From Burkholderiales bacterium (GTDB lineage Bacteria > Pseudomonadota > Gammaproteobacteria > Burkholderiales > Burkholderiaceae_C), in NCBI GenBank assembly GCA_016195825.1, contig JACPYV010000098.1:1-36431 (forward strand): a stretch of DNA of 36,431 nucleotides, in the 5' to 3' direction. Under the pieces are notes generated by a model. It was not told where the DNA came from, did not search any database, and worked only from the letters and a program-made list of their open reading frames with translations. Positions 1-945 of this stretch are shown here, in pieces. The stretch's first letter is position 1. Each line of letters starts with the position of its first letter. The translations under genes were made by a program, and so were the position numbers.

Positions 1-945
1 CCCGCGTTCGCCGATGAGCCGGCGCCGGACCCGCTGTCGTTCAACGTCGGCGTCGTCAGCGAGTACCGCTACCGCGGCATCTCCCAGTCCCGCCTGAAGC
101 CGGCACTGCAAGGCGGCATCGACTACGCCGCCCCCAACGGCTTCTACGTCGGCACTTGGGCTTCGACGATCAAGTGGATCAAGGACGCCGGCGGTGACGG
201 TCAGGTCGAGGTGGACCTGTACGGCGGCTACAAGACCGAGGTGGCCAAGGGCCTGACGCTGGACGTCGGCCTGCTGCAATACCTCTACCCCAGCAACAAG
301 CTCAACCCCAGCGCCAACACGCTGGAGCTGTACGGCGCGCTGACCTTCGGCCCGGTGACGGCCAAGTACTCGCACAGCACCACCAACCTGTTCGGCTACC
401 CCGACAGCAAGAACAGCGGCTACTTCGACGTGACGGCCACCTTCGACCTGGGTGACGGCCTGAGCCTGGCGCCCCACGTCGGCCACCAGTCGGTCAAGCA
501 CCTGTCCGCGGCTTCGTACACCGACTACTCGCTGACGCTGGCCAAGGACTTCTCGGGCCTGGTGGTCAGCGGCGCCATCATCGGCACCGACGCCAACAAG
601 ACGACCTACGCCAGCCCCGTGAACGGCAAGTTCATGGGCAAGTCCATGCTGGTGCGTGAGGCCCTGAGCGCCATCGGTGTGCAGGGGCTGACGGTCACCG
701 AGGTCAAGGGCTTCGGTCGACAGAAGGGCCACACCGAGCTGTACCGCGGTGCGGAGTACGTCGTGGACTTCCTGCCCAAGGTCAAGATCGAGGCGGCGGT
801 GAACGACGACGTCGTCGAGCGCGTCATCGAGGCCATCGAGGCCTCCGCCCGCACCGGCAAGATCGGTGACGGCAAGATTTTCGTGTCGCCGCTGGATCAG
901 GTCGTACGCATCCGCACCGGCGAAACCGGCAACGACGCGCTCTGA
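1..945 (+). CDS. TorF-family putative porin fused in frame to an N-terminally truncated PII protein (5' partial)
   Basis: The open frame runs from base 1 without a start, so the beginning lies outside the window. Its first residues ([10 protein letters not shown]) look like the end of a signal peptide cleaved after Ala-Phe-Ala. Codons 1-218 match the TorF/Gcw_chp putative porin family: the [12 protein letters not shown] block, alternating beta-strand residues and repeated GYx[13 protein letters not shown] segments, consistent with an outer-membrane barrel. A normal TorF protein ends a few residues after the GK-x-x-LV motif with a terminal aromatic residue. Here GKSMLV continues directly into [10 protein letters not shown], which is residue 17 onward of a GlnK/GlnB protein. 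The porin thus lacks its last strand and C-terminal outer-membrane assembly signal, and the PII part lacks its start and first strand. Related genomes usually carry torF, glnK and amtB as separate consecutive genes. The identification of both halves is firm; whether the fusion is biological or an assembly artefact is open. Confidence 0.88.
655..945 (+). pseudogene. glnK: Truncated PII nitrogen regulator (glnK), residues 17-112 only
   Basis: This is the C-terminal part of the fused reading frame. It encodes 96 residues that match PII from Arg17 to the end of a standard 112-residue protein. The T-loop ([12 protein letters not shown]) is intact and the uridylylated Tyr51 falls exactly at 757-759, which fixes the numbering and shows that only residues 1-16 are missing. 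The second PII signature ([12 protein letters not shown]) and the C-terminal VRIRTGETG segment are present. Missing are strand beta1 and the start of helix alpha1, part of the ferredoxin-like core, so a folded PII trimer is unlikely. No in-frame ATG lies near the junction; the GTG at 652-654 could initiate but would not restore beta1. The amt gene starts 37 bp downstream, matching the usual glnK-amtB order. Called a pseudogene by inference. Confidence 0.75.

Follow-up and report, generated by a model that had tools for sequence, protein, structure and literature searches.

The window analysed here is the whole of contig C159 (36,431 bases), which belongs to a draft genome of 207 contigs and 6.0 Mb with 93.35% completeness and an estimated contamination of 0.41%. 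It opens with a single reading frame that joins the porin gene torF to the PII regulator gene glnK, the latter deprived of its start. We regard this join as probably a misjoin, introduced where the assembler collapsed two copies of torF that agree exactly for 141 bases or more. The junction would have been made by the assembly and not by the cell, which likely carries ordinary, separate torF, glnK, and amtB genes.

Frame 1 reads from base 1 without interruption until the stop codon at 943-945, giving one ORF of 314 residues. The Pfam search of this frame identified the PF09694 (Gcw_chp/TorF) domain at residues 8-217 (E 4e-59), followed by the PF00543 (P-II) domain at residues 217-308 (E 2.3e-26), which starts only from profile position 15. 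The NCBIfam search similarly placed TIGR02001 (TorF) at residues 11-201 and the P-II model PRK10665 at residues 218-314 from position 16, the latter scoring 153.1 bits against a cut-off of 181. The TorF domain passes the curated cut-offs of both models (200.8 vs. 24 bits for PF09694, 179.8 vs. 47.15 bits for TIGR02001). The torF porin occupies positions 1-651 of the forward strand; its start, with any signal peptide, would lie upstream of the contig. The junction, GGTG at 651-654, is followed on the same strand by the glnK remnant (652-945), which consists of codons 16-112 and the TGA stop at 943-945. The GTG codon at 652-654 fits both torF and glnK codon 16. Tyr51, which has a role in the PII T-loop, is present as TAC at 757-759. 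The PII part adjoins a complete gene for the ammonium transporter AmtB (983-2506, forward strand; PF00909 at residues 71-505 of 507; TGA stop at 2504-2506).

Since torF of the relatives reads ...LV-VGLKKTF-stop and their PII reads ...DE-V16-REALS, C159 lacks seven torF codons together with the torF stop, the spacer, and 15 codons of glnK; the loss amounts to eight torF codons and the stop if the common GTG is assigned to glnK. The porin has PII in place of its own KxF-type C-terminus, and the remnant, which matches only from profile position 15-16, does not constitute a complete GlnK chain of about 112 residues with its first strand. The preliminary description, which had proposed one fused frame with a GTG codon at the junction, an intact Tyr51, and the loss of the torF end, the spacer, and the glnK start, is therefore borne out in its anatomy.

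The comparison with the torF-glnK-amtB loci of related strains, recommended in that description, revealed separate genes in every same-genus relative examined. We examined 19 same-genus relatives (G001-G019), which are Roseateles/Pelomonas according to the names of the protein matches. All 19 carry a glnK of 112 residues preceded by a torF stop. The spacer from the torF stop to the glnK start spans 14-24 bases in the 18 relatives analysed by script, whereas the stop of G010 was read by eye; the two points joined in C159 lie 83-93 bases apart in those 18 genomes. Among eight genomes outside the genus, also analysed by script, glnK encodes 112 residues in all, and the torF end was found in four, the search pattern having missed the other four. 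Overall, 27 of 27 scripted relatives have the 112-residue glnK. The PII part of the window is 96-100% identical to that of the same-genus relatives, with zero to four amino-acid differences from the 19 relatives and mostly synonymous codon changes. Of the 19 relatives, 17 use GTG as PII codon 16, and three of the 18 scripted ones use it as the matching torF codon. In G001 (contig C12; loci L022 and L058), the match to the glnK-linked torF is split into two segments whose frames differ, which may reflect a frameshift or a sequencing error.

We found no torF::glnK fusion among the matches listed for 59 relatives, nor among the best 120 of 7847 protein matches, all of which are 227-251 residues long and contain the porin domain alone. 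Among 84 PII motifs in 80 loci, many of which matched by PII alone and which may lack genomes close to that of the window, seven have an open frame of at least 100 residues upstream, and none of the seven was TorF-like by BLAST, a search in which the window's own fusion did register as TorF-like. The genomes and assemblies compared thus provided no independent instance of the fusion, which is the kind of evidence that would mark a true one. Two apparent candidates were rejected. One match in G031 (contig C52; query residues 164-311) spans both halves, but it proved to be a glnB gene behind NAD synthase with an internal stop and no torF. Equal ORF lengths for the torF and PII matches in several relatives had hinted at a genus-wide fusion, but the DNA contains stops between the genes.

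The position of the fused frame at a contig end and the overlap described here had not been part of the preliminary description. Contigs C29 and C108 both terminate in 141 bases that match bases 1-141 of the window (forward strand) exactly; all three copies lie at contig ends, as at an assembly branch point. The suffix common to C29 and C108 is exactly 141 bases, directly upstream of which the two contigs differ. On C29, genes for KdpA and a P-type ATPase (KdpB) precede a torF start, and the DNA upstream shows 87% identity to the kdp-torF loci of G005 and G002. C108 carries another torF start; segments of the region upstream match, at 73-84%, the sequence that precedes the glnK-linked torF in G018 and G013. 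Two different torF starts, one on the kdp side and one on the glnK side, therefore lead into the single contig C159. Three contig ends with one exact terminal stretch are what a collapsed repeat would produce, and from these sequences the torF stretch 1-651 appears to combine the copies of two loci. Besides this node, no exact overlap was found among the 66 of 414 contig ends compared. At the right end of the window, positions 36255-36431 match the end of contig C162 (92% over 177 bases, the last 57 identical) within an aminotransferase-like gene, named by eye; this overlap may come from mixed variants or a paralogue. Near that end, positions 33008-34580 of the reverse strand contain three consecutive genes of 169-173 residues, each with the phage tail collar domain PF07484.

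The pieces expected behind such a repeat, which relatives do possess, are missing from the bin. Neither kdpC nor kdpD was found in it, even though kdpA and kdpB are present on C29. A pattern for the torF 3′ end gave only a chance-like match with three mismatches, and a pattern for the glnK 5′ end matched glnB only. The absence of kdpC alone is common, being seen in 132 of the 200 genomes sampled from the order, yet here kdpA and kdpB are present. Because two torF starts enter C159, which then continues without a break, we infer that a second exit from the merged torF was lost from the assembly.

A second copy of torF is also found among the relatives. It lies between kdpB and kdpC in at least nine of the 19 same-genus genomes, and all ten second copies counted, which come from these nine genomes, reside at this position (L005, L008, L045-L049, L051, L053, and L054); the neighboring kdpC was confirmed by Pfam in three. 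In other families (L219, L224, L229, L234, and L027), the porin gene is placed after kdpC: in a sample of the order, where 68 of 200 genomes have kdpC, a torF-like gene follows kdpC in four of the 30 kdpC loci examined, and the order in G042 is kdpB-kdpC-torF-kdpD, with kdpB and kdpD named by eye. We found no report of a porin in the kdp operon among the best literature matches judged by title and the start of the abstract, and the name "TorF" is absent from the best literature matches on porin, GlnK, and AmtB.

The two torF copies of G006 (L007 and L045) are 99.5% identical and include an exact run of 609 bases. A tree built from 28 torF sequences does not separate the kdp-linked from the glnK-linked loci: the glnK-linked rows require eight changes, compared with a mean of 9.0 in shuffles, 156 of 500 of which were as low as the observed value. 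Only seven of the 25 inner branches are well supported, including that of the G006 pair. Based on the near-identity of the G006 copies and the lack of locus separation in the tree, sequence has presumably been exchanged repeatedly between the kdp-linked and glnK-linked torF genes, homogenizing the copies. Other drafts also break at torF. G003 has two contig ends within torF whose overlap measures exactly 91 bases, and one contig of G014 begins inside the gene.

These observations suggest how the misjoin could have arisen. The assembler would have merged the two torF copies, which share an exact stretch of 141 bases or more, and would then have continued from the composite porin gene to glnK-amtB, with some 83-93 bases lost near the end of the repeat. 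The exact overlap of the C29 and C108 ends with the start of C159, the assignment of these two contigs by their upstream matches to kdp-torF and glnK-linked torF loci, respectively, and the missing kdpC, kdpD, torF 3′ end, and glnK 5′ end all argue for a misjoin, as do the near-identical copies in G006, the unseparated loci in the torF tree, the breaks of G003 and G014 at torF, and the intact torF stop and 112-residue glnK in all 19 same-genus relatives. A further pointer is P0010, a protein on a 1,020-base contig that diverges from the other porins at either end of the same stretch. The C-terminus K[KY]xF is found in 119 of the best 120 of 7847 porin matches, P0010 being the exception. This 243-residue protein also has an odd N-terminus and may stem from another assembly chimeric at torF. 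The best short matches of its tail lie in loci retrieved for kdpC, with weak E-values (0.007 at best), and no more than hint at a chimera.

Several points weigh against the misjoin. The torF copies of the other eight relatives are only 78.9-90.3% identical, so that merging would not be the rule, and a bin that is 93.35% complete may lack kdpC and kdpD for other reasons. The flanks have only GGT or GGTG in common at the join; such an overlap is too short for a k-mer graph to join alone, and some read or non-graph step must carry the junction. The k of the assembler rests on the single node found among the 66 of 414 contig ends; a k of 141 would presumably point to MEGAHIT as the assembler. A review on metagenome curation speaks to both sides: in favor of a misjoin, it describes contig-end overlaps as long as the maximum k-mer and local errors that not even one read supports, but it calls chimeras between organisms rare, which does not favor a misjoin (PMC7111523).

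The strongest alternative, which we consider possible though unlikely, is a real and recent deletion of approximately 83-93 bases that joined torF to glnK via microhomology of three to four bases. The join is clean from codon to codon with GGT(G) common to both flanks, the GTG codon recurs at glnK codon 16 and in some torF genes of the genus as described above, and an assembler generally needs such a junction in some read. The loss of glnK would also be tolerable with glnB present: growth on nitrate is reported for glnK mutants of Herbaspirillum seropedicae, although no glnB glnK double mutant could be obtained (PMC3023670). If the deletion is real, it would yield a porin extended by PII without residues 1-15, for which no PII activity is predicted, and AmtB would depend on GlnB. 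However, such a deletion would have to coincide with a repeat at a contig end, leaves the missing kdp-side exit unexplained, and was seen in none of the relatives examined. The PII remnant shows no decay, with zero to four amino-acid differences from the 19 relatives; because it is nearly unchanged and its codon changes are mostly synonymous, a real deletion would have to be recent. A hairpin-driven deletion was rejected, as the region folds no better than shuffled sequences in four relatives (z from -0.25 to 0.26).

The preliminary description had left open a real deletion and an assembly collapse. We favor the collapse, since two contigs converge on the start of C159 with only one exit and the torF 3′ ends, kdpC, and kdpD are missing; the deletion remains the less favored of the two. 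A more elaborate and rather doubtful version of a real fusion supposes an exchange between the kdp- and amt-linked torF, with microhomology sealing it where the shared tract ends. The glnK start would have been removed in the process, so that GlnB alone would control AmtB, and the gene would represent a natural porin::PII fusion caught before decay.

An improbable source of the junction is a chimeric library molecule, or a minority variant of a mixed population, that the assembler adopted because the true paths were lost. This would explain how a join with only GGT(G) in common entered the graph, and the imperfect overlap between the right end of C159 and C162, if caused by mixed variants, would agree with it. 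On the other hand, the estimated contamination of the bin is low (0.41%), and two true exits would have to be lost. A working fusion protein, in which an exported porin carries a sensor domain, is scarcely credible despite the open frame across the junction: TorF is exported and PII is cytoplasmic, a chance join is in frame one time in three, residues 1-15 are absent although present in solved PII chains (matches to the closest ones, e.g., 1hwu and 1gnk, begin at chain residue 16), and no other case appears in the relatives' listed matches, the 80 loci, or the best 120 of 7847 protein matches.

If the junction is real, the PII encoded by the fused frame is predicted not to work, because it lacks residues 1-15 and would be exported. 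The search for another glnK or glnB, likewise recommended earlier, identified glnB on contig C173, where it follows NAD synthase and encodes a complete P-II domain. It is the sole other PII gene found in the bin, and a second intact glnK was rejected on this ground. The loss of PII function anticipated in the preliminary description would be softened by this glnB.

The presence of torF in both operons, with homogenized copies, is perhaps worth more than the fusion itself. Since the same porin family stands in ammonium and potassium (kdp) operons, K+ and NH4+, two ions of similar size, may both cross the outer membrane through TorF as a pore; no solved structure matched the TorF sequence. A fusion beside a contig end can arise from paralogues exchanging sequence, and a search for other contigs ending in the same bases, together with missing neighbors, offers a quick test for false fusions.

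The gene order of C159 is the same as that of the 19 same-genus loci, which differ in retaining the torF stop and the 112-residue glnK. In Herbaspirillum huttiense (L078), a PF09694 porin likewise lies directly 5′ of glnK, with a stop between them, as separate genes. The nlmA(orf1)-glnK-amtB operon of H. seropedicae has the same order of a membrane protein, glnK, and amtB (PMC3023670), and by analogy with H. huttiense, nlmA is probably a PF09694 porin of the TorF type. As for the assembly, C159 resembles the collapsed repeats of draft metagenome genomes described in the curation review, with exact end overlaps, several entries, and missing small contigs (PMC7111523).
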